Source of the DNA: Inhella proteolytica
Lineage (GTDB): Bacteria; Pseudomonadota; Gammaproteobacteria; Burkholderiales; Burkholderiaceae_C
Assembly: GCF_016093275.1 (NCBI RefSeq)
Contig: NZ_JAEDAK010000004.1
Span: forward strand, 124,001 to 188,000
Length of the DNA stretch: 64,000 bases
Reading direction: 5' to 3'
Of this stretch, positions 18,452 through 63,341 are shown one piece after another. The translations under genes were made by a program, and so were the position numbers. Every line of letters begins with the position of its first letter. The first letter of the stretch is position 1. Under the pieces are notes generated by a model that was given only the letters and a program-made list of their open reading frames with translations, was not told the origin of the DNA and did no database searches.

Positions 18452-18566
18452 GGGCGCGCAGCATCGCAGAGCCGCGCGCGGCATCCAGGCGTCATGCTCC
18501 GGGTAAGGCCCATTGGAAGCCCGCACCCCGGGCGCGACGATGGCCCGAAACCATGAGGGGGCTGGG

Positions 18567-19043
18567 ATGCGATACCGGGTGGAATTGATGGTCAACGGCG
18601 AGGCCGTGACGCGCGAGGTGCCGGCCACGCGCACGCTGGTGCAGCTGCTGCGCGAGGACCTGGACCTCACCGGCACCCATGTGGGCTGCGACACCGCGCA
18701 ATGCGGCGCCTGCACGGTGCATCTGAATGGCCACGCCGTGAAGGCCTGCAATGTGCTGGCCCTGCAGGCCGAAGGCTGCGAGGTGCGCACCATCGAGGGC
18801 CTGTCGCCGCCCGACAGCTCGTTGCACGTGATGCAGCAGGCCTTTCAAGATTGCCATGGCCTGCAATGCGGCTTCTGCACCCCGGGCATGGTGATGGCCG
18901 CGCTCGATCTGGTGACCAACACCCGCTGCGAGACCGAGGCCGACATCCGCAACGGCCTGGACGGCAATTTCTGCCGCTGCACCGGGTATCACAACATCGT
19001 GCGCGCCGTGCAGAAGGCCGCTGACCAGTTGGTGCGTCGATGA
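18567..19043 (+). CDS. molybdenum hydroxylase, [2Fe-2S] small subunit
   Basis: 158 residues, the standard length for the CoxS/XdhA small subunit. The plant-type ferredoxin cluster ligands are in THVGCDTAQCGACTVHLNG and VKACNVLA; the second cluster ligands are in LQCGFCTPGMVMAA and NFCRCTGYHNIV. It passes electrons from the molybdenum centre to FAD. The ATG at 18567 follows a purine-rich GAGGGGG. An 80-bp gap separates it from the large-subunit gene; that gap contains a GTCAC/GTGAC dyad (GTCACGCAGTGAC) close before the large-subunit ribosome-binding site. Confidence 0.95.
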   Translation: MRYRVELMVNGEAVTREVPATRTLVQLLREDLDLTGTHVGCDTAQCGACTVHLNGHAVKACNVLALQAEGCEVRTIEGLSPPDSSLHVMQQAFQDCHGLQCGFCTPGMVMAALDLVTNTRCETEADIRNGLDGNFCRCTGYHNIVRAVQKAADQLVRR

Positions 19044-19122
19044 GCGCTCACGCACGGCCGCTCCGAAGTGAGCGCGTTCCTCCCTTGGGGAGGTGGTCAC
19101 GCAGTGACCGGAGGGCAGTCCA

Positions 19123-21465
19123 ATGAACACGAACCCGATCGGCCAGGCCCTGCCGCGCCGCGAGGACCACCGCTTCCTGGTGGGCCGCGGCCGCTACACC
19201 GACGACCTGGTGCTGCCCCACCAGACCTACGGCTTTTTCCTGCGCAGCCCCTACGCGCATGCGCGCATCCAGCGCCTGGACACCAGCGAGGCGCGCGAGG
19301 CGCCCGGCGTGCGCCTGGTGCTCACCGGGGCCGACTTTCGCGCCTTCGGCGGCCTGCCCTGCGGCTGGCTGATCCACTCGGCCGACAACAGCCCGATGAA
19401 GGAGCCGCGCCACCCCATCCTGGCCGACGGCGTGCTGCGCCATGTGGGCGAGCCCTATGCGCTGGTGGTGGCCGACACGCTGGCGCAGGCCAAGGCGGCC
19501 GCGGCGCTGATCGTGCTGGAGGCCGAGGAGCTGCCCGCGGTGGCCGACACCGCGCACGCCAGCACGCACGGCACCGCCGTGCACCCGGAGGCGCCGGACA
19601 ACGTCTGCTACCGCTGGGAGGTGGGCGACGAGGCCGCCACCACGCGCGCCTTCGAGCAGGCCGCGCACGTCACCCGCCTGGCCTTCCGCAACAACCGGCT
19701 GATCCCCAACGCCATCGAGCCGCGCGCCGCCAATGCCAGCCACAACCCGGCCGACGACCACACCACGCTCTATGTGGCCAACCAGAACCCGCACCTGGAG
19801 CGCCTGCTGATGTGCGCCTTCGTGCTCGGCATTCCCGAGCACAAGCTGCGCGTCATCGCGCCCGATGTGGGCGGCGGCTTCGGCAGCAAGATCTTTCTGT
19901 ACAGCGAGGAGACCGCGCTGGTGCACGCCAGCCGCCAGATCGGCCGGCCGGTGAAGTGGACGGCCGAGCGCAGCGAGAGCTTCCTGAGTGACGCCCATGG
20001 CCGCGACCACGTCACCGAGGCCGAGCTGGCGCTGGATGCCCAGGGGCAGTTCACCGGTCTGCGCGTGCGCACCACGGCCAACCTGGGCGCCTACCTGAGC
20101 ACCTTCGCCTCCTGCGTGCCCACCATCCTCTACGCCACCCTGCTGGCCGGCCAGTACCGCACGCCGGCCATCCATGCCGAGGTGACGGCCGTCTTCACCC
20201 ACACGGCGCCGGTGGACGCCTACCGCGGCGCCGGCCGGCCCGAGGCCACCTATGTGGTGGAACGCCTGGTGGAAACCGCGGCGCGTGAGCTGGGCATGGA
20301 CCCGGTGGAACTGCGCCGCCGCAACTTCATCCGCCAGTTCCCCTACGCCACGCCGGTGGGGCTGACCTATGACGTGGGCGATTACGACGCCACGCTGAAC
20401 GGCGTGCTGGAGCTGGCCGACCTGGCCGGCTACCCGGCCCGCAAGGCGGTGAGCGAGGCGCGGGGCCTCAAGCGCGGCATCGGCTACAGCTGCTACATCG
20501 AGGCCTGCGGCCTGGCGCCCTCGCACCTGGCGGGGCAGCTGGGCGCCCGCGCAGGCCTGTTCGAGTCGGCCCTGGTGCGCGTGCACCCCACCGGCAAGGT
20601 CAGCGTCTTCACCGGCAGCCACAGCCATGGACAGGGGCATGAAACCAGCTTTGCGCAGCTGGTGGCCGGGCGGCTGGGCATCCCGGTGGAGGATGTCGAC
20701 ATCGTGCATGGCGACACCGGCCGCATCCCTTTCGGCATGGGCACCTACGGCAGCCGCTCGCTGGCGGTGGGCGGCTCGGCCATCGTCAAGGCACTCGACA
20801 AGGTGCTGAACAAGGCGCGCCGCATCGCCGCCTACCTGCTGGACTGTGCACCCGAGCAGGTGCAGTTCGAGAACGGCCTGTTCCGCCACGGCGAGCGCCA
20901 GCGCCGCTTCACCGACATCGCGCTGGCCGCCTACGTGCCCCACCACTACCCGCTCGGTGAGCTGGAGCCCGGGCTGGAGGAGTTGGCCTTCTATGACCCC
21001 GCCAACTTCACCTTCCCGGCCGGCAGCCATGTCTGCGAGGTCGAGATCGACCCGCGCACCGGCCATGTGAAGGTGGATCGCTTCAGCGCGGTGGACGACT
21101 TCGGCACCGTGATGAACCCCTTGATCGTCGAAGGCCAGGTGCAGGGCGGCGTGGCCCAGGGCATCGGCCAGGCGCTGCTGGAGCACGGCGTCTACGACCC
21201 CGACAGCGGCCAGCTGCTGACCGGCAGCTACATGGACTACGCGCTGCCGCGCGCCGACGACATCCCCGACATCGCCGTGCACACCCTGCCCGGCACGCCC
21301 TGCCCGCACAACCCCATCGGCGCCAAGGGCTGCGGCGAGGCCGGCACCATCGGCGCGCCAGCGGCCGTCATCAACGCCATTTGCGACGCCCTGGGCGTGA
21401 AGGAGATGCCGATGCCGGCCACGCCCTTCCAGGTCTGGCAGGTGCTCCAGGAAATTGACCCATGA
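19123..21465 (+). CDS. molybdenum hydroxylase large subunit (xanthine dehydrogenase/CoxL family)
   Basis: 780 residues. It binds the molybdopterin cofactor and hydroxylates the substrate. Motifs: [15 protein letters not shown] at the N-terminus, VGGGFGSK for cofactor binding, [44 protein letters not shown], and [17 protein letters not shown] with the catalytic glutamate. The active-site loop is AYRGAGR, not the AYxCSFR of true aerobic CO dehydrogenase, so this is a form-II or general hydroxylase and CO is an unlikely substrate. Aldehydes, purines or N-heterocycles are all possible. The FAD subunit gene overlaps its stop. Confidence 0.94.
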
Positions 21466-22259
21466 ACTACACCCGTGCCGAATCGGTCGAGCAGGCGGTC
21501 GAGGCCTTCCAGGCCCACCCGGAAGCGCGCTACCTGGCCGGCGGCCAGAGCCTGCTGCCGGCGCTGCGCCTGGGCCTGGCCACGCCGGGCGCCCTGATCG
21601 ACCTGGGCCGTCTGCATGCGCTGCGCGGCATCCGCGCCGAGGGCGAGCACACCTTGCACATCGGGGCGCTGAGCCGCCATGCCGAAGTGGCCGACTCGCG
21701 CGACGTGCAGGGCCTGATCCCCGGCCTGGCCGAGCTGGCCGGGCAGATCGGCGACCGCCAGGTGCGCGAGATGGGCACGCTGGGCGGCAGCATCGCCAAT
21801 GCCGACCCGGCCGCCTGCTACCCGGCCGCGCTGCTGGGCCTGGGCGCGCTGATCCAGACCGACCGGCGCGTGCTGCCGGCCGATTCCTTCTTCCAGGGCC
21901 TGTTCCACACCGCGCTGGAAGAGGGCGAGCTGATCCAGCGCGTCAGCTTCCCGGTGCCCGAGCAGAGCGCCTACGAGAAGTTCCGCCAGCCGGCCTCGCG
22001 CTTCGCCCTGGTGGGGGTGTTCGTCAGCCGCGGGCCGCTGGGCGTGCGCGTGGGCGTCACCGGTGCGGGGCCCTGCGCCTTTCGCGCCAAGGCGCTGGAG
22101 GCCGCGCTGCAGGCCGACTGGCGGCCCGAGGCGGCGCGTGCGGTGGCGCTGGGCGCTGAGGGCTTGCTGAGCGATTTGCACGGCAGCGCGGCCTACCGCG
22201 CGGCGCTGATACCCGAGCTCTGCGCACGGGCCGTAGCCCGGGCCAGCCTGGGGCGCTGA
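21462..22259 (+). CDS. molybdenum hydroxylase FAD-binding medium subunit
   Basis: 265 residues of the CoxM/XdhB type. FAD-binding segments are [20 protein letters not shown] and [21 protein letters not shown]; the C-terminal domain has [17 protein letters not shown]. It transfers electrons from the iron-sulfur subunit to the acceptor. ATG overlaps the large-subunit stop (ATGA). The order here is small-large-medium subunit. Fifteen bases after its stop begins the first EAL gene, on the same strand. Confidence 0.94.
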
Positions 22260-22274: not shown

Positions 22275-23666
22275 GTGCACACCGCCCCCGGCAACCCCTT
22301 GCGCTGGCGGCGCTGGCTGGGCACGGCCCGGCTGTTGCTGCTGGCGCAGGAGCGGCGCGAAAGCGCGGTCGCGGCGCCGGAGCGGCGCCGGCGCCAGCTC
22401 GATCTGGGCGCGCTGGGCCTGCTGCTGGCCTGTGCCCCCTGGCTGCTGTACTTCGCCTGGCGGGGCGTGTGGCTGCCGGCGCTGCTGTGCGGGCTGGGCG
22501 TGCTGCTGGGCCTGGCCCTGGTGCTGTGCGCGCAGCGGGGGCGCTTCCGCCTGGGGGCGCTGCTGCTCTTTGGTGGCGTCTGGGCCACCGTGGCCGCTTT
22601 CGGGATTTGGGTGGACCGGCCGGTCGACGCGCTGCCGCGTGGCGTGCAGTTCGTGCTGCTGCCGCTCTACCTGGCGCGGCCGGTGCTGCTGGCCGGCCTG
22701 CGCCCGCTGTGGCGCGCGCTGGCCGGGCTGCTGACGCTGGCGCTGTTCGTGCTGCTGTGTGCCTTGCCCGATGTCGGCACCGGCGCCCCCCCGCTCAGCC
22801 ACGGCGAACGCCTGGTCGGCCTGGGGTTGAGCTTGGTCGGCGCCGCGCTGTTGACGCAGAACCTGGCGCGTGCCGGCGCGGCGCAGGCGCGCGTGCGCCA
22901 GGGCCTGGCGCTGGAGCTGGCGCAGGCGATCGCGCAGGACCAGCTCAGCCTGCACCTGCAGCCGCAGTGCGACGAGAACGGCCGCCTCGTCGGCCTGGAG
23001 GCCCTGCTGCGCTGGCCCCACCCGCAGCGGGGTCTGCTGCGGCCGGCGCAATTCCTGTCGCTGGCCGAGCGCGAGGGCCTGATGGTGCCGCTGGGCCTGT
23101 GGGTGCTGCGCCAGGCGGCCACGCTGGCGCGGCAGTGGCAGGGCCACCCGCAGCTCGGCACGGTGCCCATCGCCATCAACCTCTCGCTGCTGCAGGTGCA
23201 GGACGCCACGGCCCGCCAGCGCCTGCTGGAGCAGCTGGCCGCCTTGGAGCTGCCGCCCGGGCGCCTGCGCCTGGAGCTGGCCGAGCCCGTGTTCGCCGCC
23301 CACCCGCAGACCCTGGAAGCAGTGCTGGAAGGCGCACAGGCGCTGGGCGTGGGCGGGGCGCTGGAGCACTTCGGCGCCGGCTGGTCGGCGCTGACCAGCT
23401 TGGCCCATCTGCCGCTGGAGCAGCTGAAGATCGACCGCCAGTTCGTGCAGACCCTGGACCCCGGCGCGGCGCAGCGCGACAGCATTGCCCAGGCCGTGGT
23501 GCAGCTGGGCCAGCGCCTGGGCCTGGCGGTGGTGGCCGCGGGGGTGGAGACCGCGGCCCAGCAGGAGGCACTGCGCCAGCTGGGCTGCACACGCTTCCAG
23601 GGCCACTGGATCGGCCTGCCGATGACCCCGGTGGCGCTGCAGCAGTGGGCGGAGGCGGCGCGGTGA
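22275..23666 (+). CDS. membrane EAL-domain protein with degraded active site (EAL array copy 1)
   Basis: 463 residues: several hydrophobic segments between ~42 and ~205, then an EAL domain from ~215. Kept motifs: GLEALLRW, INLSLLQVQ and LEQLKIDRQFV. Lost motifs: the metal-binding DDFGTGYS is EHFGAGWS, and AEGVE is AAGVE. Both changes remove residues needed for cyclic-di-GMP hydrolysis, so this copy is probably not a phosphodiesterase; it may bind cyclic-di-GMP or a partner. The GTG at 22275 has a GGAGG directly overlapping it, which is poor spacing, so the true start may be elsewhere. It overlaps the next EAL gene by 4 nt. Confidence 0.88.
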   Translation: MHTAPGNPLRWRRWLGTARLLLLAQERRESAVAAPERRRRQLDLGALGLLLACAPWLLYFAWRGVWLPALLCGLGVLLGLALVLCAQRGRFRLGALLLFGGVWATVAAFGIWVDRPVDALPRGVQFVLLPLYLARPVLLAGLRPLWRALAGLLTLALFVLLCALPDVGTGAPPLSHGERLVGLGLSLVGAALLTQNLARAGAAQARVRQGLALELAQAIAQDQLSLHLQPQCDENGRLVGLEALLRWPHPQRGLLRPAQFLSLAEREGLMVPLGLWVLRQAATLARQWQGHPQLGTVPIAINLSLLQVQDATARQRLLEQLAALELPPGRLRLELAEPVFAAHPQTLEAVLEGAQALGVGGALEHFGAGWSALTSLAHLPLEQLKIDRQFVQTLDPGAAQRDSIAQAVVQLGQRLGLAVVAAGVETAAQQEALRQLGCTRFQGHWIGLPMTPVALQQWAEAAR

Positions 23667-25042
23667 GCCCGGCCCTCGTCAAGGGCGCCGGGCGCGCCTG
23701 GAGCCCGCCCGAGGCGCCACCCGACCCGCAGTTCGAGCGCCGCCGCCAGCTGCTGCTGTGGGTGGCGATCGCACTGATCGGCCTGCTCTCGCTGAGCTTC
23801 GCGCTGCGCTTCGGTCTGCAGGGCCAGCAGCGCCTGGCGCAGCTGCAGCTGGGCTACCTGGGCGTGGCCCTGGGCGCCGCCTGGCTGCTGCACGCCGGCC
23901 TGGTGCGCGACGCCGCGCTCTTCCTGGTGCTGGCCAGCGCGCTGGGCATCGCCGTCAACGCCTGGTGGGCCGATCTGCCGCAGCACGGCACGCCGCGCAC
24001 CCTGCATCTCTACCTGATTCCGCTGCTGCTGCTGGCGCGCTTCTGGCTCTCGCGCGAGCCCCGCCTGCTGCGCAGCGCCACCAGCGCCAGCCTGCTGCTG
24101 CTGCTGGGCCTGCTGTGTGTGCTGGACAACCCTTTTGTCCAGCCGCTGGTTCTGCCGCCCGGCGAGCACCGCCGCCTGGCCTGGGCCGTGCCGGTGCTCG
24201 CCGCCGTGCTGTTCGCGCTGCTCACGCGCCTGCAGGAGCTGGACCTGCACGACCAGCTGCGCCTGGAGCTGGACCTCGCCACCGCGCTGGCCGAGGACGA
24301 ACTGAGCTTGCACTTCCAGCCGCAGTGCGATGCCGCCGGCCGCCCCTTTGGCGCCGAGGCGCTGGTGCGCTGGGAGCACCCGCGGCTGGGCGCGGTGTCG
24401 CCCGCACGCTTCGTGGCGCTGGCCGAGCGCAGCGGCCTGATCCTGGCGCTGGGCGAGCAGGTGGCGCGCAAGGCCTGCGCCTTTGCGGCGCGCTGCCAGC
24501 GGCAGCCCGGCCTGCGGGATCTGAGCATCGCCATCAACGTCAGCGCCGCACAGTTCCAGGACGAGGCGGCCTTCGAGCGCCTGCTGCAGACCGTGCAGGC
24601 GGCGCAGCTGCCGGCCGGCAGCATCAAGTTCGAGCTCACCGAGTCCTTGATCGTGCAGGACCTGGCCAGCCTGCGCGCGCGCCTGGCACGCTGCCAGGCC
24701 GCCGGCATCCGCACCGCGCTGGACGACTTCGGCACCGGGCATGCCTCGCTGGCCAGCCTGCGCGGCCTGCCGTTCGACCAGCTCAAGATCGACCAGGGCT
24801 TCGTGAAGAACCTCGGCCGCCACGCACGCGCCGAGGCGTTGGCGCAGTCCGTCATCCAGCTCGGCCGCGAACTCGGGCTGGAAGTGGTGGCCGAAGGCGT
24901 CGAGACCGCCGAGCACCTGGCCCTGCTGCAGGGCATGGGCTGCAGCCGCTTCCAGGGCTACTGGTTCGCCCGCCCCCTTCAAGAGGATGAGGCGCTGGCC
25001 TGGCTGCAGCGCCGCCGCGCGACTGAATCCACACCGGCCTAG
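23663..25042 (+). CDS. membrane EAL-domain phosphodiesterase (EAL array copy 2)
   Basis: 459 residues from the GTG at 23663, with GGAGG 7 nt upstream and a 4-nt overlap with copy 1. The N-terminal half has ~6 hydrophobic segments (LLLWVAIALIGLLSLSFAL, LGYLGVALGAAWLLHAGL and so on). The EAL domain keeps all key motifs: GAEALVRWEHP, INVSAAQFQ, FELTESLIV, LDDFGTGHASL, QLKIDQGFV and AEGVETAEH. It should hydrolyse cyclic-di-GMP to pGpG at the inner membrane. The membrane part shares a W-x-D-x-P then PR...LIPL pattern with the other three copies. Confidence 0.92.
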   Translation: MSPALVKGAGRAWSPPEAPPDPQFERRRQLLLWVAIALIGLLSLSFALRFGLQGQQRLAQLQLGYLGVALGAAWLLHAGLVRDAALFLVLASALGIAVNAWWADLPQHGTPRTLHLYLIPLLLLARFWLSREPRLLRSATSASLLLLLGLLCVLDNPFVQPLVLPPGEHRRLAWAVPVLAAVLFALLTRLQELDLHDQLRLELDLATALAEDELSLHFQPQCDAAGRPFGAEALVRWEHPRLGAVSPARFVALAERSGLILALGEQVARKACAFAARCQRQPGLRDLSIAINVSAAQFQDEAAFERLLQTVQAAQLPAGSIKFELTESLIVQDLASLRARLARCQAAGIRTALDDFGTGHASLASLRGLPFDQLKIDQGFVKNLGRHARAEALAQSVIQLGRELGLEVVAEGVETAEHLALLQGMGCSRFQGYWFARPLQEDEALAWLQRRRATESTPA

Positions 25043-25122
25043 GGTTTCCACCAGAGCCACTCCGGGGGGCGGGATGAACACACTGGGTTCACACCGGATC
25101 AACCGGGATCAGGGAGAGGGCC

Positions 25123-26529
25123 GTGGAGTTGCCGAGCTCGCGCCTGTTCATGGCGGCCTTGCTGCTGGAGCGCTTTCGTGCCCGGCCCTGGCTGCGCGCA
25201 GCCGAGGCCGGCTACGCGCGTCGCCAGCAGCGCATGCTCTGGGCATCGGCACTCGGTCTGGGCCTGTCTCTGCTGCCCTGGTTCCTGTTCTTCAGCTGGC
25301 GCGCCGACTGGGGCGCGGCCGGGCTGTACGCCATCGGGCTGAGCCTGGTGGCCCTGCAGGCCCTGCTGATCCGCCAAGGCTACGCGCTCGCGGCCAGCCT
25401 GGTGCTCAGCCTGACGGGCTGGCTGGCGATCTCCCTGGTCGCCCTGTGGATCGACCAGCCCAGCGCCGGCACGCCGCGCTCGGTGCTGCTGTTCTGCCTG
25501 CCACTCTTCCTGGTGCAGCGCTTCCTGCTGCAGGAACAGCCGCGCTGGTTGCGCGACGGCGTGCAGGGCGTCAGCCTGGGCCTGCTGGTGCTGTGGGCCA
25601 GCCTGCCCGATCTGGCCCCCGGCGCACCGCCCCTGGGGCCGGAGCTGCAGCGCGGGGGCGCGATCTTCAATGTCGCCGCCGCCGCGCTGCTGAGCGCCTG
25701 GGTGCTGCATCTGGAAGAGGCCGAGCTGCGCGAGCACAAGGGCCTGGCGCTGGAGCTGGCGCGCGCCATTGCCGGCGGCCAGCTGCGCCTGGCGCTGCAG
25801 CCGCAATGCGATGCGCAAGGCCGCGTGCTGGGGGTGGAGGCGCTGCTGCGCTGGTCGCACCCGCGCCGCGGTGAGCTGAGCCCCGCCGAGATCCTGCCGC
25901 TGGCGCGTGCCGAAGGCCTGCTGCTGCCGCTGGGCGACTGGGCCCTGCGCGAGGCCTGCCGCCTGCTGCAGGCCTGGCAGCTGCAGCTCGGCCTGCGCGA
26001 GCTGCCACTGGCGCTGAACCTCAGCCCCGCCCAGCTGCACGACGGCGCCGCCTTCGAGCGCCTGCTGGCCCAGGTGGAACGCGCCGGGCTCGCCCCCGGC
26101 CGCCTGGTGTTCGAGGTCACCGAGGCCGTCTTTGCCGAGCAGGCCGAGCGCGTGCGCGAGCGCCTGCTGCGCTGCCGCAAGCTCGGCATCGCCACCGCGC
26201 TGGACGATTTCGGCACCGGCTACTCCTCGCTCGCCTACCTGACCGAACTGCCCTTCGACCAGCTCAAGCTCGACGCCAGCTTCGTGCGCGGCCTGGGGCG
26301 CGATGCGCGCTGCCTGCGCATCGCCGAAACCGTGCTCTCGCTCGGCCAGCGCCTGGGCATGCAGGTGGTGGCCGAGGGGGTCGAGACCCCGGCGCAACGC
26401 CAGCAGCTGCTGGCCCTGGGCTGCACGGCCTTCCAAGGCCGCTGGCTGGCCGCGCCGATGCCGGCCGCCGAGCTGCCGGTCTGGCTGGCACGACAGGCGC
26501 AGTGCTCAGAGCCGCGGGCCGCGGCATGA
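25123..26529 (+). CDS. membrane EAL-domain phosphodiesterase (EAL array copy 3)
   Basis: 468 residues from a GTG preceded by GGGAG at good spacing. Membrane half: ASALGLGLSLLPWFLFFSW, GLYAIGLSLVALQALLI, LVLSLTGWLAISLVALWIDQP and others. The EAL domain is intact: GVEALLRWSHP, LNLSPAQLH, FEVTEAVF, LDDFGTGYSSL, QLKLDASFV and AEGVETPAQ. It lies 80 bp after copy 2, the only real gap in the array, so it may have its own promoter there. Its stop overlaps copy 4 (ATGA). Confidence 0.92.
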   Translation: MELPSSRLFMAALLLERFRARPWLRAAEAGYARRQQRMLWASALGLGLSLLPWFLFFSWRADWGAAGLYAIGLSLVALQALLIRQGYALAASLVLSLTGWLAISLVALWIDQPSAGTPRSVLLFCLPLFLVQRFLLQEQPRWLRDGVQGVSLGLLVLWASLPDLAPGAPPLGPELQRGGAIFNVAAAALLSAWVLHLEEAELREHKGLALELARAIAGGQLRLALQPQCDAQGRVLGVEALLRWSHPRRGELSPAEILPLARAEGLLLPLGDWALREACRLLQAWQLQLGLRELPLALNLSPAQLHDGAAFERLLAQVERAGLAPGRLVFEVTEAVFAEQAERVRERLLRCRKLGIATALDDFGTGYSSLAYLTELPFDQLKLDASFVRGLGRDARCLRIAETVLSLGQRLGMQVVAEGVETPAQRQQLLALGCTAFQGRWLAAPMPAAELPVWLARQAQCSEPRAAA

Positions 26530-27845
26530 CGCAGGAAGCCATCTTCGGCCAGCGGCGCCGCTGGACCCTGCAGCTCAGCGCCTGGCTGGCCCTGCTGGCC
26601 AGCCTGGGCTTCGTGCTCAGCCTGCTGGCGCTGGGCCAGCCCGAGCGCCTGCTCGGGCCCGGCCTCGGCGCCCTGGGCGCCCTGGCCGTGCTGGCCCTGC
26701 TGCAACGGGGCCATGGCCGTGCGGCGGCCTGGGTCTGCATCCTGGCGCTGGCGCTGTGCGTGGTGGTGCTGGGCCTGTGGGTGGATGTGCCGCTGGCCGA
26801 CGCACCCGAGCACACCCCGCGCAGCGTGCACCTCTACCTGCTGCCGCTCACGCTGATGGCCTACCTGCTGCTGGTGCGCGAGCCCGCCCTGCTGCGCCTG
26901 TCCTGCTGCGCCGGCCTGCTGGGCTTGCTGGCCTGGCTGGCCCTGCAGCCCAACCCGCTCGGCATCACGCCGGCCCTGGCCGAGGCCGAGCGCGCCCGTC
27001 TGGTGGTGGCGGCACCGCTCTTGAGCGCGCTGCTGCTGGCCGGCATCGTGCACCTGCGCAGCGCGGGGCTGGACGATCAGTCGCGCCTCGAGCTGGACCT
27101 GGCGCGGGCCATCGTCGAGGAGCAGCTGGAGCTGCACTACCAGCCGCAATGCGATGCATGGGGCCGCGCGCTCGGCGTCGAGGCCCTGGTGCGCTGGCGC
27201 CACCCGGTGCAGGGGCCGATCTCGCCGGCCCGCTTCGTGCCGCTGGCCGAGCGCAACGGTCTGATCGTGCCGCTGGGCGAGCTGGTGCTGCGCCAGGCCT
27301 GCCGCTTCGCGCAGGACTGGCAGGCCCAGCCCGGCGCGCAGCCGCTGCAGGTGGCCGTCAACGTGAGCGCGCTGCAGCTGGCCGAGGACGCCGGCCTGGA
27401 GCGCCTGCTGGAGCTGGTGCGCCAGCACCGCCTGCCGCCGCAGAGCATCAAGTTCGAGCTCACCGAATCCGTGCTGGCCGACCAACCCGAGCGCCTGCGC
27501 CGCCTGCTGGCGCGCTGCCGCGAGCAGGGCGTGTGCACCTCGCTGGACGACTTCGGCACCGGCTACGCCTCGCTGGCCTACCTGAGCCAGCTGCCGTTCG
27601 ACCAGCTGAAGATCGACCAGAGCTTCGTGCGCGCCCTGGGCAGCAGCGAGCGGGCCCTGGAAGTGGCGCGCACCGTGGTCCAGCTGGGCCAGCGCCTGGG
27701 CATGGAGGTGATCGCCGAGGGCGTCGAGACCGAGGCCCAGCGCGAGCAGCTGCTGGCGATGGGCTGCACGCGCTTCCAGGGCTATCTGTTCGCGCGCCCG
27801 CTGCCGACCGGTGAATGCCGGGCCTGGCTGCAGGCGCACGCCTGA
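26526..27845 (+). CDS. membrane EAL-domain phosphodiesterase (EAL array copy 4)
   Basis: 439 residues from the ATG at 26526. Hydrophobic segments run from ~16 to ~180 (LSAWLALLASLGFVLSLLAL, CILALALCVVVLGLWVDVP, LLPLTLMAYLLL), then an intact EAL domain: GVEALVRWRHP, VNVSALQLA, FELTESVLA, LDDFGTGYASL, QLKIDQSFV and AEGVETEAQ. It is the last of the array and converges on the quinone oxidoreductase gene with a gap of 11 bp. An upstream start at 26502 would add eight residues. Confidence 0.92.
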   Translation: MTQEAIFGQRRRWTLQLSAWLALLASLGFVLSLLALGQPERLLGPGLGALGALAVLALLQRGHGRAAAWVCILALALCVVVLGLWVDVPLADAPEHTPRSVHLYLLPLTLMAYLLLVREPALLRLSCCAGLLGLLAWLALQPNPLGITPALAEAERARLVVAAPLLSALLLAGIVHLRSAGLDDQSRLELDLARAIVEEQLELHYQPQCDAWGRALGVEALVRWRHPVQGPISPARFVPLAERNGLIVPLGELVLRQACRFAQDWQAQPGAQPLQVAVNVSALQLAEDAGLERLLELVRQHRLPPQSIKFELTESVLADQPERLRRLLARCREQGVCTSLDDFGTGYASLAYLSQLPFDQLKIDQSFVRALGSSERALEVARTVVQLGQRLGMEVIAEGVETEAQREQLLAMGCTRFQGYLFARPLPTGECRAWLQAHA

Positions 27846-27856
27846 TCAGGCGCCGT

Positions 27857-28822
27857 TCATTCGTTGCGCAGCACCAGCTTGCCCACCACGGCCCGCGCCG
27901 TCATGCGCGCAAAGGCGGCCGGCAGCTCACGCATCGGCAGCACCTGATCGAGCACCGGCCGCACGCTGCCCTGCTCCCACAGCGGCAGCAGGCCGGCCAG
28001 CAGGGCGGCATTGGCGGCCGGCTCACGCTTGGCGAACTCGCCCCACCACACGCCCAGCAGCGCGGCTTCCTTCAGCAGCAGCAGGTTCCAGGGCAGGGCC
28101 GGGATCTGCCCCTGCGCAAAGCCCACCACCAGGTAGCGCCCGCGCCAGGCCAGAGCGCGCAGCGCGGCCTCGGCCAGCGGGCCGCCCACCGGGTCCAGCA
28201 CCGCATCCACGCCCTGCGACGCGGCGGCCTTGAGCGCTTCGCGCAGGCCCTCGGTGGGCAGGGCCTGGTCGGCGCCGATGTCCAGGCAGGCCTGACGCTT
28301 TTCCGGCGTGGAGGCCACGGCCAGCACCCGCGCGCCGGCCGCCTTGGCCAGCTGGATGGCCGCCGTACCCACGCCGCCGGCCGCGCCCAGCACCAGCAAG
28401 GTCTCGCCGGCCCGCAGCGCGGCGCGCTGCAGTGCATGGGCGACGGTGCCGTAGGTCAGCAGCAAGGCCGCCCCGGCCTCGGGCGGCAGGCTCTCGGGCA
28501 AGGGCAGCAGCGCGGCGGCGGGGGCCACCGTCTGCGTGGCAAAACCGCCCAGGCCCGCAAAGCCGGCCACGCGCCGGCCCAGCAGGGCGGCGTCCACGCC
28601 AGCACCCAGCGCCACCACCCGGCCGCAGAACTCGGCCCCGGGCACGAAGGGCAGCGGCGGCTTCATCTGGTACTGGCCGTTGACGATCAGCCAGTCGGGA
28701 AAGTTCAGACTGGCGGCCTCGATGGCCACGCGCACCTGGCCGGGGCCGGGCTGGGGGTCGGGCAGCTCGGCCCAGCGCAGGCCGTCCAGCCCCGTCGCTT
28801 GTTCACAGATCCAGGCGTGCAT
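27857..28822 (-). CDS. NADPH:quinone oxidoreductase, zinc-independent MDR family
   Basis: 321 residues of the quinone-oxidoreductase branch of the medium-chain dehydrogenases. The GroES-like N-terminal part has ASLNFPDWLIVNGQYQ and PFVPGAEFCGRVVALG; the nucleotide fold has LVLGAAGGVGTAAIQLAKA, DAVLDPVGG and RYLVVGFAQG. No catalytic zinc ligands are apparent. It reduces quinones or enones with NADPH in the cytoplasm. The ATG at 28822 follows CGGAGAA. The 220 bp between it and the divergent coxG-like gene contain a GC-rich dyad (GGCGCCCCCTGGGGGGAGGCGCC region, ~28910-28935). Confidence 0.9.
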   Translation of the reverse strand: MHAWICEQATGLDGLRWAELPDPQPGPGQVRVAIEAASLNFPDWLIVNGQYQMKPPLPFVPGAEFCGRVVALGAGVDAALLGRRVAGFAGLGGFATQTVAPAAALLPLPESLPPEAGAALLLTYGTVAHALQRAALRAGETLLVLGAAGGVGTAAIQLAKAAGARVLAVASTPEKRQACLDIGADQALPTEGLREALKAAASQGVDAVLDPVGGPLAEAALRALAWRGRYLVVGFAQGQIPALPWNLLLLKEAALLGVWWGEFAKREPAANAALLAGLLPLWEQGSVRPVLDQVLPMRELPAAFARMTARAVVGKLVLRNE

Positions 28823-29042
28823 TGCAGTTCTCCGTTTGGCTAAGTTGCGCCTTTCATGCGGGTCAGCCCCCAAGTGCCACCGCGGAACCGGCTCCGCCGG
28901 GCCGCTGGTGGCGCCCCCTGGGGGGAGGCGCCGCAGGCGCTTCGGGGGGGACAAAGCAGGGTCTGCCCGCTTGGGCGGGCGAAAGAGCGGCGGCAGCATC
29001 CGCCCACGATGCGAACGGAGTGTGCATGCACCTCGATGCCCG

Positions 29043-29585
29043 ATGGAACTGAGCGGCCAGACCCTGTTGCCCGGCACGCCCGAGCAGGCCTGGGCGCTGC
29101 TGCACGACCCCGAGCGCCTGCGCGCCGCGCTGCCGGGCTGCGAAACCCTGCAGGCCGACGGGCCGCCCGGCCATTACCGCGCCGAGCTGCTGCTCAGCGT
29201 GGGCCCGTTGAAGGCGCGCTTCCAGACCCGGCTGGAGCTCTACGACCTGCAGCCCCCGCAGCGCTACCGCCTGCGCGCCCAGGCCCAGGGCGGCGCGGCC
29301 GGCCATGGCAAGGGCGAGGCCGAGGTGGAACTTTTGCCCGAGGCCGGTCAGGGCACGCGCCTGCAGTACCGCGCCCAGGTGCAGGTGGGCGGGCGCCTGG
29401 CCCAGCTGGGCGCGCGCCTGATCGAACCGGCGGCCCGGCAACTCAGCCAGACCTTCTTCGAGGCCCTGGCCAGCCAACTGGCCGCCGCAGCAGCACCGGC
29501 GCCGTCGCCTCTGCCGCCAGCGGTACGCCCCTGGTGGCGCCGCTGCTGGGACTGGCTGTGCGGACGGCGGGCCTCGTTACAGTAG
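29043..29585 (+). CDS. CoxG-like SRPBCC protein
   Basis: 180 residues. The first ~145 match the carbon-monoxide-dehydrogenase subunit G group of the SRPBCC fold: MELSGQTLLPGTPEQAWALLHDPERLRAALPGCETL, then YRAELLLSVGPLKARF, and QLGARLIEPAARQLSQTFFEAL. CoxG helps recruit or mature Cox-type hydroxylases at the membrane. The C-terminus ends in a hydrophobic/tryptophan-rich tail (WWRRCWDWLCG) that may touch the membrane, as in CoxG. It is probably functionally linked to the hydroxylase genes at 18567-22259, though the EAL array and a minus-strand gene lie between. Confidence 0.85.
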   Translation: MELSGQTLLPGTPEQAWALLHDPERLRAALPGCETLQADGPPGHYRAELLLSVGPLKARFQTRLELYDLQPPQRYRLRAQAQGGAAGHGKGEAEVELLPEAGQGTRLQYRAQVQVGGRLAQLGARLIEPAARQLSQTFFEALASQLAAAAAPAPSPLPPAVRPWWRRCWDWLCGRRASLQ

Positions 29586-29667: not shown

Positions 29668-32600
29668 ATGAGCGCCACCGAGCCGCAGATCGAAGCCGCG
29701 CTGGACGAACAGCGCCAGCGCCTGGACGAAAGCACCCGGCGGGGGCTGCGCGTCGCGCTCTGGCTCGTCTTTGCCGCCGGCCTGGCCCAGGCCCTGGCCA
29801 CTTGGTGGGGCGCGGGCAGCCAGCCCATCGCCACCTGGCGCCTGGTGCTGCTGAGCACCATCGGCGTGGGCATGAGCGGCGTGGCACTGCTGGCGCAGCG
29901 CAGCCTGCGCCGTCGGGGCGTGGCGGTGGCCGCCGCGCTCTTCAGCTGGGCCGCGCTGGCGGTGCTGCTGGTACTGCCCTGGATCACCGGCGACGGGCTC
30001 TCCGACCCCAGCCTGCCGGCGCTGGGCGTGGTGGTGGTCTGCATGGGCCTGCTGGTGTCGCCGAAGGCGGCCTGGCAGGCGCTGTGGCTGGGCGTGGCCG
30101 GGCTGCTGCTGGTCACGCTGGCGCAGGCGCTCGGCTGGATCGAGGGGCCCAGCGACCTGCGCCGCGCCCCCCTGCCGGTGGTGGCGCTGGGTCATCTGCT
30201 GCCCCTGCTGCTGAGCGGCTGCTTGGTGGTGCATTACGGCCGCCTGTTCTGGAGCGCCACGCGCTCGCTGGACGAGGCGCAGGGGCTGCTGAGCCGCGCC
30301 CAGCAGGAGCAGCAGGCCTCGGCAGCACGGCTGGACGCAGCCGAGCGGCGCCAGCGCGAGCTGCTCGACGCCTCGCTCACCGCCATCCTGATCTACGACG
30401 CGCGCGACGGCAGCCTGCTCTACGCCAACCCGCAGGCGCTGGGGCGCTACGGCGTCGGCACCGTGGCCGAGCTGGACCCGACCTGGCTGGCCCCGGGGGA
30501 TGGCTACGGCCCCGAGGAGGCGCGCGCCCTCATCCAGCGCACGCTCGAAAAGGGCCCGCAAGAGCAGTGGTGGTGCTCGCGCCGGCGCGACGGCGGCCTG
30601 CTGTGGTGGGACATCAAGACCCAGCGCCTTCAGCTCGACGGCCGCGACGCCGTGGTGGTGTTCGGCCACGACATCAGCGACCAGGTGGCGGCCCGCTCCG
30701 CCCTGGCCCATGCGCGCGAGGAACTGGAACAGCAGGTGCGCAGCCGCACGCGCGAGTTGCAGCAGCAGCAGCAGCGCCTGCAGGCCGTGCTGGACGCTTT
30801 GCCCGCCACCCTGGCCATCCGCGATGCGGGCGGCCGCCACCAGCTCATCAATCGCCAGTTCGAGCTGGCCACCGGCTGGCGGCGTGAGCAGGCGCTGAGC
30901 CAGCACAGCCGCCTGTGGCTGGGCGCCGAACTGGGCGCGCAGCAGGACCGGCGCGATGCCGAGCTGCTCGCCGGCGGCGGGCTGCAGCAGTTCGAACAGG
31001 CCGTGCTGCACCCCAAGGAAGGCCCGCGCACGCTGCTGGTGAGCACCGTGCCACTGCCCGACGCCGAGGGCGGCACCCAGGTGCTGAGCCTGGGGGTGGA
31101 CATCACGGCGCTCAAGCGCCAGCAGGAGCAGCTGGCGCAGGCGCGCGACGAGGCGCAGCGCCTGGCGCAGGCCAAGCACGAGCTGCTGGCACGCATGAGC
31201 CACGAGCTGCGCACCCCGCTCAATGCCGTGCTCGGCCTAGCCCAGATGGCCCTGATGTCCTCCCCCGAGGGCGAGGTCCGACCCGCCGAAGCCCGCCAGG
31301 TATTCGAGCGCATCCACACCGCCGGCCAGCACCTGCTGGGCGTGGTGAATGAGGTGCTGGACCTGGCCAAGCTGGAGGCCGACAAGTTCAGCCCGGCGCT
31401 CGAAGCCCTGGACCCCGCCGAGCTGGCGCGCGACGCGCTCGCCCTGGTGGAGCCGCGGGCGCGCGAGAAACAGCTGCCGCTGCGCCTGCAGCTCGACCCG
31501 CCGCTGCCCGCGGCGGCCCGGCTGGACCGCCAGCGCGTGCGCCAGGTGCTCGTCAACCTGCTCGGCAACGCCATCAAGTTCACCAGTCAGGGCGAGGTCT
31601 GCCTGCAGCTGCATACCGAGGGCCAGGAGCTGGTGTTCACCGTGCACGACACCGGCCCCGGCATTGCCGCCGCCGAGCGCGAACGGGTGTTCCAGGACTT
31701 CGAACAGGCCGAGGGCGCGGCCGCCGAGCCCGGCACCGGCCTGGGCCTGGGCATCAGCCGGCGGCTGGCGCGCGCCATGGGCGGCGAGATCCGTCTGCAC
31801 AGCCAGCCCGGCCTGGGCTCGCAATTCAGCCTGCACCTGCCCTGGCGCGCGGCGGCGGCCGCGCTGCCGGCACCCGCGGTGGCCCCCGTGCCCCCGCCCG
31901 CCGAGGGCGGCCGCTTCAGCCGCGCCGCGCTGCAGGGCCTGCGCGTGCTGATCGTCGACGACGTGGCGATCAACCGCGAGATCCTGGGCGAGATGCTGCT
32001 GCAGCTGGGCGCCCAGTTCGAGCAGGTGGGTGGCGGCGCCGAGGCGCTGGCCTGGATCGCCCAGCATGGCGTGGCCCGCATCGACCTGGTGCTGATGGAC
32101 ATCCAGATGCCCGGCATGGATGGCTACGAGGCCACGCGCCGGCTGCACCAGGTGCACCCGCAGCTGCCGGTTCTGGCGCTCACCGCCAACGCCCTGCCCG
32201 AGCAGCGCGCCGAATCGGCCGCCGCCGGCATGCGCGGCCACATCACCAAGCCGGTGGAGCTGGCCGAGCTCGTCAGCACCCTGCGCGAGCAGGCGCAGGC
32301 CCTCGGGCTGTGGCTCGGGGCCGAGCCGGAGCAGCCGGCCGCCGCGGTGGCGGCGCCTGCGCCCAACCGTCCGCCGCCCCCGCCGCCGCCGCGCGAGGAC
32401 CTGCCGCTGGACTGGGACCATGAGGCCGCGCTGGCGCGCTGCGCCGGCAAGCTGGAACTGCTGTGCCGGCTGCTCGGCGGCTTCGTCAGCCAATACCGCC
32501 AGGAGGGCCTGCCCAGCGAGACGGCGGCCCAGCTGGCCTGGGTGCACCGGCTCAAGGGCACGGCGGCCAATCTGGGCCTGATGGGCCTGTCCCGCCTGGC

Positions 32601-32724
32601 CGCGGCCTGCGAGGCCGAGCTGCGCAGCGAGCCCGCCGCCGCCCAGCGCTCGCTGCAGCGCTTGCAAGCCGCGCTGGACCTGCAACTCACCCAGCTGCAG
32701 GCCTGGCTGGAGCTGCAGGGCTGA
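29668..32724 (+). CDS. hybrid sensor histidine kinase with REC and Hpt domains
   Basis: 1018 residues, BarA/ArcB-like. About six transmembrane helices (30-200), coiled coil, PAS (~235-345), second PAS (~370-480), HisKA with the phosphorylated histidine in ARMSHELRTPLN (~510), HATPase (NLLGNAIKFTS, DTGPGI, GTGLGLGIS), receiver (~750-870; VLIVDDVAINRE, LVLMDIQMPGMDG, ITKPVELAEL) and a C-terminal Hpt domain with HRLKGTAANLG. All phosphorelay residues are present, so it can pass phosphate to a separate response regulator, which is not encoded next to it. The PAS and membrane region should sense an unknown signal. Only weak ribosome-binding sequence precedes the ATG. Confidence 0.94.
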   Translation: MSATEPQIEAALDEQRQRLDESTRRGLRVALWLVFAAGLAQALATWWGAGSQPIATWRLVLLSTIGVGMSGVALLAQRSLRRRGVAVAAALFSWAALAVLLVLPWITGDGLSDPSLPALGVVVVCMGLLVSPKAAWQALWLGVAGLLLVTLAQALGWIEGPSDLRRAPLPVVALGHLLPLLLSGCLVVHYGRLFWSATRSLDEAQGLLSRAQQEQQASAARLDAAERRQRELLDASLTAILIYDARDGSLLYANPQALGRYGVGTVAELDPTWLAPGDGYGPEEARALIQRTLEKGPQEQWWCSRRRDGGLLWWDIKTQRLQLDGRDAVVVFGHDISDQVAARSALAHAREELEQQVRSRTRELQQQQQRLQAVLDALPATLAIRDAGGRHQLINRQFELATGWRREQALSQHSRLWLGAELGAQQDRRDAELLAGGGLQQFEQAVLHPKEGPRTLLVSTVPLPDAEGGTQVLSLGVDITALKRQQEQLAQARDEAQRLAQAKHELLARMSHELRTPLNAVLGLAQMALMSSPEGEVRPAEARQVFERIHTAGQHLLGVVNEVLDLAKLEADKFSPALEALDPAELARDALALVEPRAREKQLPLRLQLDPPLPAAARLDRQRVRQVLVNLLGNAIKFTSQGEVCLQLHTEGQELVFTVHDTGPGIAAAERERVFQDFEQAEGAAAEPGTGLGLGISRRLARAMGGEIRLHSQPGLGSQFSLHLPWRAAAAALPAPAVAPVPPPAEGGRFSRAALQGLRVLIVDDVAINREILGEMLLQLGAQFEQVGGGAEALAWIAQHGVARIDLVLMDIQMPGMDGYEATRRLHQVHPQLPVLALTANALPEQRAESAAAGMRGHITKPVELAELVSTLREQAQALGLWLGAEPEQPAAAVAAPAPNRPPPPPPPREDLPLDWDHEAALARCAGKLELLCRLLGGFVSQYRQEGLPSETAAQLAWVHRLKGTAANLGLMGLSRLAAACEAELRSEPAAAQRSLQRLQAALDLQLTQLQAWLELQG

Positions 32725-60200: not shown

Positions 60201-63200
60201 GTGCGCCACCGGCCACTTCCGGCCAGGGCCTTGGCCCTGGCGCTTGCGCTGCTGGGGATGCCCACCCCAGTCGCGCAGGCGGAGCCGCCGGCACCGCATC
60301 TGCGCGTGGGCGTGCTGGCGGTGGGCGAACCTGCGCAGGAGCAGGGCCTGTGGCAGCCGCTGCAGCAGCACCTGGCGCAAAGCCTGGGGCAGCGCGTGGC
60401 GCTGGCGGTTCACACCCGCGAGCAGCTCGACGCCGCCTTGCACGAAGGCCGGCTCGACCTGGTGCTCACCCACCCCGGCCATGCCGTGAGCCTGCTGCAC
60501 CAGCAGCGCGTGGGCAGCCCCATCGCCACCCGGCTGATGCGGCCGCACCCCCAGGCCGCCGAGGGCCTGGGCAGCTTTGGTGGCGTGATCTTCACGCTCG
60601 AGCGGGCCAGCCACCCGCAGGCCCTGCCGGAACTGGCGCTGGCCCGTATCGCTGCGCCGGACCGGCACTGGCTGGGGGCCTACCAAATGCAGGCGCAGGA
60701 GCTCATCGACCAGGGCCTGCCGGCGCCGCAGGCCCAGCAGCTGCACCCGGTGGGCCCGAGCCAGTGGGCGGTGGTGGAGGCCGTGCTGAAGGGCCAGGCG
60801 GCGGCCGGCTTCGTGCGCACCGGCGTGCTGGAAGACCTGGCCGCGGCCGGCCAGCTGGATCTGCGGCAGATCCGCGTGCTGGGCGCCAAGCAGTGGTCAC
60901 GCTTTCCGCTGCGCGTCTCCACCCGGCTCTACCCGGAATGGCCGGCCCTGCTGAGCCCGCAGCTCAGCCCCGCCGCGGGCGCACGCGTGGCCGCGGCGCT
61001 GCTGTCGATGCCAGCGGCGCCCGGCCAGGCACTGGCGGGCTTCACCATCCCGGCCGACTACCGAGACGTCGTGGCCGTGCTGCGCGCCCATGGCGAGCCG
61101 CCCTTCGACGACACCAGCCGGGCCCTGCTGCAGGAGCTGTGGCTGCGCCACCGGCTGGGCCTGGGCTTGGGTCTGGGCGCGCTGGGCCTGTGTGCCCTGG
61201 CCGTGCTGTGGGAACGCCGCCGCCTGGCGCGCAGCGTGCGCCGCGTGGGCATGCTGGCCGATGCCTCGCGCGATGCGGTGTTCAGCCTGGACCGCAGCGG
61301 CCGCCTGCGCTTTTGGGGCCGCGCCGCCACCCGGCTGTTCGGACCCGCGCTGCGCCCGGGACAAGGCTTCGCCACGCTGCTGGCGCCGGGCTCGCAGGAC
61401 GGCTGGCGCCAAGGCCTGGCGCACCTGCAGGGGCCGCAGCCCGCCGAGCTGCGCACCGAGCTGGTGGCGCTGGACGCCGCCGGTCAGCCCTTCCCGGCCG
61501 AACTGACCCTGCAGCCGGTGGCCGGCAGCCAGCGCGCCCACCACACCGCCATGCTGGCCTTCGTGCGCGACTTGCGCCCCGAGCGCGAGCATCAGCTGCG
61601 CACCCGCCTGCTGGCCAGCGTGTTCACCCACGCGCGTGAGGGCATCACCATCACCGACCCGCAGGGCACCATCCTGGAAGTGAACGAGGCCTTCTGCCAG
61701 GTCACCGGCTACCGCCGCGAGGAAGCGCTGGGGCGCAACCCGCGCCTGCTGCAGTCCGGCCGCCAGAGCCCGGGCTTCTACCGCACCATGTGGGAGACCC
61801 TGCTGCGCCGCGGCCACTGGAGCGGCGAGATCTGGAACCGCCGCAAGAGCGGCGAGGTCTACCCCGAGATGCTGAGCATCAGCGCGGTGCGCGACCCGCA
61901 GGGCACGCTGCAGCATTACGTCGCGCTGTTCAGCGACATCAGCGAACTCAAGAGCCAGCAGCAGCGCCTGGAGCAGGTGGCGCACTTCGACAGCCTGACC
62001 GGCCTGCCCAACCGCACCCTGCTGGGCGACCGCCTGAGCCAGGCCGCCGCCTACGCGCACCGCCACCAGCGCTGCGTGGCGGTGGCGCATCTGGACATCG
62101 ACCAGTTCACACAGATCAACGAACGCCTGGGCCAGAGCCTGGGCGACGAGCTGCTGCGCCTGCTGGCGCGGCGCCTGCAGCTCACCCTGCGCGAGGACGA
62201 CACCGTGGCGCGCGTGGGCGGGGACGAGTTCATGCTGCTGCTGTGCGACATGGGCAGCCCCGAAGCCAGCCGCGAGGTGCTGGAGCGCCTGCAGGCCATC
62301 GTGGCCGAACCCTTCAGCCTGCAGCAGCACACCATCCGCCTGACCAGCAGCCTGGGCGTGGCCCTCTACCCGCACGACAGCGAGAACCCCGAGCGCGTGC
62401 TGCGCGGCGCCGAGCAGGCCTCCTACCGCGCCAAGCAACAGGGCCGCAACAGCCTGTGCTACTTCGATGCCGCGCACGACGCCGCCCTGCAAGCGCGCCA
62501 CCAGCTGCTGCACGCGCTGCGCGAGGCCCTGCAACAGGGCCAGTTCCGCCTGCACTACCAGCCCAAGGTGGACATGGGCAGCGGCCAGGTCATCGGCCTG
62601 GAGGCGCTGATCCGCTGGCAGCACCCGCAGCGCGGCCTGGTGCCGCCGGCCGAGTTCCTGCCCGTCATCGAGGACGACGCGCTCGGCCTCGACGTGGGCG
62701 ACTGGGTGCTGGCCCAGGCCCTGCGCCAGCTGACCGAGTGGGCCGCGGCCGGCTGTGCGCTGCCGGTCTCGGTCAACATCGCCGCGCGCCATCTGCAGGC
62801 ACCCGGCTTCGTCGAGCGCCTCGCCGAGCTGCTGCGCCAGCACCCGCAGGTGCCGCCGGCGCTGCTGGAGCTGGAGATCCTGGAGACCGGCGCGCTGCAG
62901 GACCTGCAGGCGGTGCGTCAGGTGCTGACGGCAGCCCAGGACCTGGGCCTGCAGTTCGCCCTCGACGACTTCGGCACCGGCTACTCCTCGCTCGCCTACC
63001 TGAAGAACCTGCCGGTGCGCACGCTCAAGATCGACCAAGGCTTTGTGCGCGGCATGGCGCAGGACCCTGGCGACCGCGCCATCGTGCAGGCCGTCATCGG
63101 CCTGGCCCAGGCCTTCGACCGCGAGGTCATCGCCGAAGGCGTGGAGGACCGCGAACTCGCCGCCTTGCTGCTCGCCCTGGGCTGCCGCCAGGGCCAGGGC

Positions 63201-63341
63201 TATGGCTTCGCGCGGCCGCTGCCGCCCGAGCAGGTGCCGGCCTGGGTGCGCGGATTTGTCGCCAGCTGGCGACCCCTGTGCCCTCATGAAGAAGGAAGCG
63301 CGCAGCAGGCGCTTGGCAGGGTGGGGGTCGCGGTTTCATAG
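60201..63341 (+). CDS. PhnD-like/PAS/GGDEF/EAL cyclic-di-GMP protein
   Basis: 1046 residues from a GTG. Signal sequence (~1-27), a periplasmic phosphate/phosphonate-binding-like domain (~33-300: LRVGVLAVGEPAQEQGLWQPL, LDLVLTHPGHAVSL, VVEAVLKGQAAAGFVRTGVLEDL), transmembrane helix (~320-337), two PAS domains (~350-460 and ~470-590), GGDEF (~597-755; ARVGGDEFMLLL, with the RxxD inhibitory site REDD five residues before it) and EAL (~775-1020; GLEALIRW, VNIAARHL, LDDFGTGYSSL, LKIDQGFV, AEGVE). Both output domains look intact, so the protein may be bifunctional, switching on a periplasmic ligand. Three bases after the chemoreceptor gene. Confidence 0.93.
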   Translation: MRHRPLPARALALALALLGMPTPVAQAEPPAPHLRVGVLAVGEPAQEQGLWQPLQQHLAQSLGQRVALAVHTREQLDAALHEGRLDLVLTHPGHAVSLLHQQRVGSPIATRLMRPHPQAAEGLGSFGGVIFTLERASHPQALPELALARIAAPDRHWLGAYQMQAQELIDQGLPAPQAQQLHPVGPSQWAVVEAVLKGQAAAGFVRTGVLEDLAAAGQLDLRQIRVLGAKQWSRFPLRVSTRLYPEWPALLSPQLSPAAGARVAAALLSMPAAPGQALAGFTIPADYRDVVAVLRAHGEPPFDDTSRALLQELWLRHRLGLGLGLGALGLCALAVLWERRRLARSVRRVGMLADASRDAVFSLDRSGRLRFWGRAATRLFGPALRPGQGFATLLAPGSQDGWRQGLAHLQGPQPAELRTELVALDAAGQPFPAELTLQPVAGSQRAHHTAMLAFVRDLRPEREHQLRTRLLASVFTHAREGITITDPQGTILEVNEAFCQVTGYRREEALGRNPRLLQSGRQSPGFYRTMWETLLRRGHWSGEIWNRRKSGEVYPEMLSISAVRDPQGTLQHYVALFSDISELKSQQQRLEQVAHFDSLTGLPNRTLLGDRLSQAAAYAHRHQRCVAVAHLDIDQFTQINERLGQSLGDELLRLLARRLQLTLREDDTVARVGGDEFMLLLCDMGSPEASREVLERLQAIVAEPFSLQQHTIRLTSSLGVALYPHDSENPERVLRGAEQASYRAKQQGRNSLCYFDAAHDAALQARHQLLHALREALQQGQFRLHYQPKVDMGSGQVIGLEALIRWQHPQRGLVPPAEFLPVIEDDALGLDVGDWVLAQALRQLTEWAAAGCALPVSVNIAARHLQAPGFVERLAELLRQHPQVPPALLELEILETGALQDLQAVRQVLTAAQDLGLQFALDDFGTGYSSLAYLKNLPVRTLKIDQGFVRGMAQDPGDRAIVQAVIGLAQAFDREVIAEGVEDRELAALLLALGCRQGQGYGFARPLPPEQVPAWVRGFVASWRPLCPHEEGSAQQALGRVGVAVS

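Follow-up and report, generated by a model that had tools for sequence, protein, structure and literature searches.

Four tandem membrane EAL genes in Inhella proteolytica, the first of which encodes a probable pseudo-phosphodiesterase

The window, which is the whole stretch of 64,000 nucleotides of Inhella proteolytica DNA analysed here, carries four neighbouring genes on the + strand, each encoding a membrane half followed by a C-terminal EAL domain, and the first of the four proteins has lost catalytic residues that the other three retain. With the list of open reading frames checked in window coordinates, copy 1 (A1; 22275..23666, 463 aa) combines a six-helix membrane half with a degenerate EAL domain (~22914-23618), and copy 2 (B1; 23663..25042, 459 aa, EAL ~24272-24976), copy 3 (A2; 25123..26529, 468 aa, EAL ~25753-26457), and copy 4 (B2; 26526..27845, 439 aa, EAL ~27096-27800) each combine a membrane half with an EAL domain in which all catalytic residues checked are present. 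The start of copy 2 overlaps the stop of copy 1 by 4 nt (GTGA, 23663..23666), copies 3 and 4 overlap in the same way (ATGA, 26526..26529), and 80 nt (25043..25122) lie between the two pairs; the coordinates, strand, and junctions given in a first-pass annotation of this DNA were all confirmed. Pfam found one EAL domain per protein in all four copies (E 7.3e-59 to 2.8e-69), with scores of 199-234 bits vs a curated cut-off of 31.3, and no other family in any of the four at E<=0.01. NCBIfam matches fell within the EAL region and none came up to its cut-off.

The genome holds 33 EAL domains in total, and four EAL genes came to lie within 4.2 kb in 0.0125% of random placements. Outside the array, only two EAL pairs in this genome are closer than 10 kb (5.8 and 6.4 kb). 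Another c-di-GMP protein, of phosphonate-binding-domain/PAS/GGDEF/EAL make-up, lies in the same window at 60201-63341. A scan for promoters and terminators returned no promoter-like site and one terminator-like site, vs 1.1 in shuffled sequences. A role in defence was considered and rejected, as PADLOC gave no match for the three proteins scanned (copy 1, copy 4, and the neighbouring kinase).

Homology among the four proteins extends over their full length, with pairwise identities of 26-43% for the N-halves and 46-59% for the EAL halves, and the W-x-D-x-P, PR, and (L/I)PL pattern pointed out in the first-pass annotation was found in all four membrane halves. By blastp, the N-halves of c1-c3 (4.5e-17), c2-c4 (1.2e-13), and c2-c3 (1.5e-13) gave the lowest E-values, followed by c3-c4 (1e-8), c1-c4 (7e-6), and c1-c2 (0.01), and a search of the own genome at E<=1 matched the membrane half to the four array proteins only. 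In a full-length tree of 35 relatives, the four copies formed one clade (100/97), whose sister group comprised 9 proteins belonging to three further genera of the same family. Weaker nodes joined the four in a tree of the membrane half alone (69/78) and in a tree of the own EAL domains, where they grouped at 89 (unstarred) among membrane-half relatives; this last tree held 30 of the 33 domains, the three weakest, which had no locus, being left out. Local duplication of whole genes, and not of the EAL domain alone, had been the original proposal, and it is supported by the end-to-end homology together with the single clade. The opposite outcome, in which the nearest relative of each copy is a stand-alone gene, was rejected from the own-genome search, the full-length tree, and the tree of own EAL domains.

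The full-length tree paired copy 2 with copy 4 (98/97) and copy 1 with copy 3 (92/86), and AU tests rejected the sister pairs c1+c2 (p 0.003), c3+c4 (0.013), and c2+c3 (0.013). Trees of the two halves taken separately used 21 of the 35 rows: the membrane-half tree returned the same pairing (94/93 and 94/95), and the EAL tree joined the four copies at 96/97 and copies 1 and 3 at 83/67, with no support for pairing copies 2 and 4. Given the overlap inside each pair and the gap between the pairs, the simplest history is that an overlapping two-gene unit A-B was probably duplicated to yield A1-B1 and A2-B2. Alternatively, copy 1 may have split off first, as a topology with c1 outside c2+c3+c4 survived the AU test (p 0.218); copy 1 also sits on a branch longer than any other among the 35 rows (1.16) and is odd in composition, so the duplication of a pair is a probable history and not a firm one.

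For the catalytic residues, 12 positions were compared across 61 aligned EAL domains, 30 from the own genome and 31 from membrane-half relatives, with the row of L052 ending before the E352 position. Positions are given in RocR numbering. Copies 2, 3, and 4 are each intact at 12/12 catalytic and metal-binding positions, and each probably works as a c-di-GMP phosphodiesterase. Copy 1 is intact at 8/12 and carries D295E, D296H, a T to A change in loop 6, and E352A; by alignment, the E and H codons that replace DD of DDFGTG lie at 23364..23369 and the A codon that replaces the catalytic E at 23538..23540, both on the + strand. Either aspartate is altered in copy 1 only among the 61 domains, and the loop-6 A recurs in three other EAL domains of the own genome. 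A second altered EAL domain was seen elsewhere in this genome (L029, G000:C15:1420-2124), with E265D, D318S, and E352K. In the part of PMC12943098 that was available, E352 of RocR is described as catalytic, and replacing the equivalent glutamate of TBD1265 as abolishing activity. With D295, D296, and E352 lost, copy 1 is probably an inactive pseudo-phosphodiesterase, and on its residues it is counted among proteins of the EAL fold but not among the phosphodiesterases. Its frame is open, with an ordinary codon make-up, and it retains E175, N233, E265, K316, and Q372. This loss is an addition to the first-pass annotation, whose suggestion of graded cyclic-di-GMP breakdown by four enzymes does not hold for a copy lacking three catalytic residues; its other suggestion, a hetero-oligomer, would fit better.

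The membrane half was modelled twice from 7-row alignments, one of the models being that of copy 4. Both models have six helices (mean pLDDT 85.3 and 82.7), which in copy 4 span residues 3-197, and in both the sixth helix continues towards the EAL domain. The D-x-P..PR loop lies between helices 3 and 4, and its D, P, and R are invariant in 25 aligned members. This loop is predicted to be periplasmic, because helix 1 is preceded by basic residues and further ones fall in the loops that follow helices 2 and 4. None of the known membrane sensor domains (MASE, MHYT, 7TMR, and others) gave a Pfam match above the curated cut-off in the array proteins. Among the 25 members, MASE7 was found in 3 (best E 0.018), MASE6 in 1 (0.15), and 7TMR-DISM in 1 (0.25), and the lowest E-value of any family was for TgpA_N, again in 1 member (0.0047). 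Assignment to a known sensor domain was rejected, since no Pfam family covers the members consistently.

In a structural comparison, the best-ranked matches came from the six-helix membrane modules found in class III adenylyl cyclases. The top-ranked Foldseek match was Cya (7yzk, Rv1625c; probability 1.00, E 0.057, TM-score by query 0.51) and the second was human AC9 (probability 0.93, E 0.49, TM-score by query 0.50), with superpositions at an rmsd of about 7 A, and no match of the membrane half reached E<=0.001. Array proteins and these cyclases have in common six helices, the sixth of which reaches towards the output domain (predicted for the array proteins), and they differ in that the output here is an EAL domain. 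Cya itself is a dimeric adenylyl cyclase whose sixth helix extends to its output domain, according to the part of PMC9433096 available.

Sequence comparisons with the same group were mixed. The domain profile was aligned by hhalign with six six-helix cyclase N-termini, picked by ORF length and motif from 30, after the cyclase-fused row had been left out of the domain profile; the alignment ran end to end over 173 columns (P 3.5e-4, probability 37%), vs probabilities of 0.1% for reversed profiles and 1.3% for the membrane part of the window kinase (29668-32724), which shows no kinship with the array membrane half. The six cyclases taken singly were not significant (P 0.03-0.63), and circular-shift controls, with a best P of 0.00084, retain true segments and are thus unclean nulls. 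When 30 loci of class III cyclases were searched with the domain profile by hmmsearch, the lowest domain E was 0.042 (L178). A cyclase-fused relative aligned with full-length Cya in one stretch running through the membrane part (E 3.7e-5); the membrane part adds no score to it, at 26.7 bits vs 27.0 for the soluble piece, and the values with the full query were 160.5 vs 156.9 bits. There, the D of D-x-P is matched to a Cya D located three residues ahead of the one that I count as T122, with low posterior support; the Cya residue names and the Ex1 pocket next to this site are taken from the available part of PMC9433096. Searched by sequence against solved structures, the membrane half alone gave no match for profile A3 (E<=1) or L069, and the membrane parts of L051 and L042 gave chance-level matches only. 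A match of profile A2 to RecA chains (best E 0.00098) ran through a 30-residue repeat and was discarded as spurious. All things considered, I lean towards kinship of the membrane half with the class III adenylyl-cyclase membrane module, for which the sequence support is weak.

Genome surveys placed the six-helix domain in at least 36 of 399 genomes of the family and, at E<=1e-10, in at least 9 of 399 genomes chosen order-wide, the own genome being included in both counts; the genome sets of the surveys overlap, and the counts are lower bounds from 8 scored candidates per genome (4 in the full-length survey). The domain also turned up in named records from Lysobacteraceae, Shinella, and Ahrensia, and it is dispersed in proteobacteria, usually as a single copy. 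The EAL motif was present in 25/29 fetched proteins with the membrane domain. An alignment-based contig scan returned mostly other EAL proteins, with the membrane domain at E<=1e-3 in 3/80 loci (L075, L082, L136). When 379 genomes were searched with a full-length profile, the own genome gave its four strong matches, G209 three, two of them adjacent, and all others at most two among the four candidates scored in each. G209 holds an adjacent EAL-EAL pair with the membrane domain, and G115 holds two EAL genes 6.4 kb apart. None of the five other genomes of the genus has the array, so synteny, which had been proposed as a check, did not extend to them, and these lower-bound surveys showed no second array of four genes in any genome that they covered. 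The first-pass view that such an array is unusual therefore stands for four membrane EAL genes in the genomes searched, but it is tempered by the pairs elsewhere and by a seven-gene array in Leptospira (PMC12943098, available in part).

Relatives of the membrane domain are not confined to EAL proteins. In G286 (L069:3271-6141), two adjacent genes have it fused to a Guanylate_cyc domain, and on this evidence the module appears to serve cyclases as well as EAL proteins. L051 carries a Guanylate_cyc domain. Two six-helix domains occur within one ORF of ~450-500 codons in L050/L073, L072 (G114), L053 (G074), and L055 (G256). Pfam recognised no family in L050 and L072, the two of these that were scanned, and each would be a membrane protein of two modules without a recognised output domain. 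Recurring neighbouring copies of the domain, in different guises, would fit a partner function.

The proposed mechanism would start from one ancestral gene, whose product was a six-helix membrane receptor bearing an EAL domain in the cytoplasm; this gene would have doubled into an overlapping pair A-B, the pair then doubling again into A1-B1 and A2-B2. The products would probably assemble into dimers, with contacts in the membrane domain, in its long sixth helix, and on the EAL face, and these dimers would include heteromers between the products of translationally linked genes. Ligand binding on the periplasmic side, near the conserved D-x-P/PR loop, would move the sixth helix and thereby set EAL activity, and A1 would be the non-catalytic regulatory partner. 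I give this reading, of receptor phosphodiesterases working as dimers or heteromers with A1 as the non-catalytic partner after duplication of an A-B pair, close to an even chance, which makes it the likeliest of those considered. A narrower form, in which each overlapping pair makes one A:B heteromer whose adenylyl-cyclase-type module controls c-di-GMP breakdown, with A1 as the dead subunit, is rather doubtful. Under that narrower form, the pseudo-heterodimeric membrane adenylyl cyclases would have here a counterpart that is made from two genes and degrades c-di-GMP. Local control through contacts between GGDEF/EAL proteins of E. coli is described in the available part of PMC5635695, where the passages on heterodimers concern GGDEF domains.

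Instead of partners, the four products could be independent homodimers with diverged ligands, adjacent only because they are tandem duplicates, with copy 1 redundant and decaying under relaxed selection. The strong divergence of the copies, whose N-halves are 26-43% identical, would suit this, as would the long branch of copy 1 and its loss of several conserved positions, but the intact frame and the majority of conserved positions that copy 1 retains, and the 4-nt overlaps that favour joint translation, make it somewhat unlikely. LapD, FimX, and BluF are degenerate EAL proteins, and copy 1 might presumably resemble them as a non-catalytic c-di-GMP receptor that reports to a partner, with copies 2-4 holding the local level low. 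Action of degenerate EAL domains by binding is on record, for LapD and BluF in PMC5635695 and also in PMC3509220 (each available in part), and the residues E175, N233, E265, K316, and Q372 are kept in copy 1; the loss of both aspartates and E352 may nevertheless weaken binding, no output partner was found for copy 1, and I regard this role as improbable.

The neighbourhood suggests a further reading, in which the array belongs to a molybdenum-hydroxylase (cox-like) operon and matches c-di-GMP levels to the substrate, or to the redox state, that the enzyme serves. A CO-dehydrogenase-like enzyme is encoded upstream by genes for iron-sulphur, molybdopterin, and FAD subunits, the last of which, a CO-dehydrogenase/xanthine-dehydrogenase-like FAD subunit (21462..22259, +), stops 15 nt before the start of copy 1 on the same strand. 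The array ends 11 nt from a zinc-type alcohol dehydrogenase gene on the opposite strand (27857..29077, -), convergent with it. CO-dehydrogenase-like subunits and, past the array, a CoxG-family region occupy 18513-22259 and 28536-29585 of the window, and it looks as if the array had been inserted, together with the alcohol dehydrogenase gene, into a cox-like cluster. Further on, at 29668-32724, there is a hybrid histidine kinase with a membrane N-terminus, PAS, HisKA, HATPase, and receiver domains, and an Hpt domain slightly below the cut-off. The 15-nt spacing and the CoxG-family region speak for the operon, but the FAD subunit recurs at 69% identity in 1/5 other genomes of the genus (G004), where genes for DUF3617 and AAA ATPase proteins, and no EAL gene, come after the orthologous subunits. 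The relatives in G209 adjoin a formate-tetrahydrofolate ligase gene, and so do those in G115, as judged from the opening residues of that ORF alone. The link between array and hydroxylase is not conserved, and membership in such an operon is very unlikely.

Set beside known systems, the array shares with membrane-sensor EAL phosphodiesterases that have no GGDEF domain a membrane N-half, a C-terminal EAL domain, and, in copies 2-4, the catalytic positions, but it differs in a membrane half without a Pfam family, in four tandem copies, and in a first copy that is predicted inactive. As in other tandem arrays of c-di-GMP enzymes, the genes are adjacent paralogs that appear to descend from one another. 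Leptospira also has tandem paralogous genes for c-di-GMP turnover at one locus, seven PAS-GGDEF genes in its case; those encode PAS diguanylate cyclases that are all predicted to be functional in the available part of PMC12943098, whereas here they encode membrane EAL proteins, one of them predicted dead. Like copy 1, LapD, FimX, and BluF keep the EAL fold with catalytic residues lost, and copy 1, predicted dead, differs in heading an array of intact paralogs. Literature searches, screened by title and abstract start, brought up no recognisable description of a tandem membrane-EAL array, nor one of an EAL protein with a membrane module of the adenylyl-cyclase type. The available part of PMC4821796, which clusters adenylyl-cyclase-type membrane modules, contains neither c-di-GMP nor diguanylate.

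A predicted-dead EAL protein at the head of translationally linked, intact paralogs makes heteromer control of phosphodiesterases directly testable. According to the available parts of PMC9433096 and PMC12414865, it is an open question what adenylyl cyclases sense through their membrane domains. If the kinship with these domains is true, a bacterial EAL family with invariant residues in a loop predicted to be periplasmic would give ligand searches a second read-out. Should the doubtful reading of A:B heteromers with an adenylyl-cyclase-type module also be true, cAMP synthesis and c-di-GMP breakdown would share one orphan membrane receptor.
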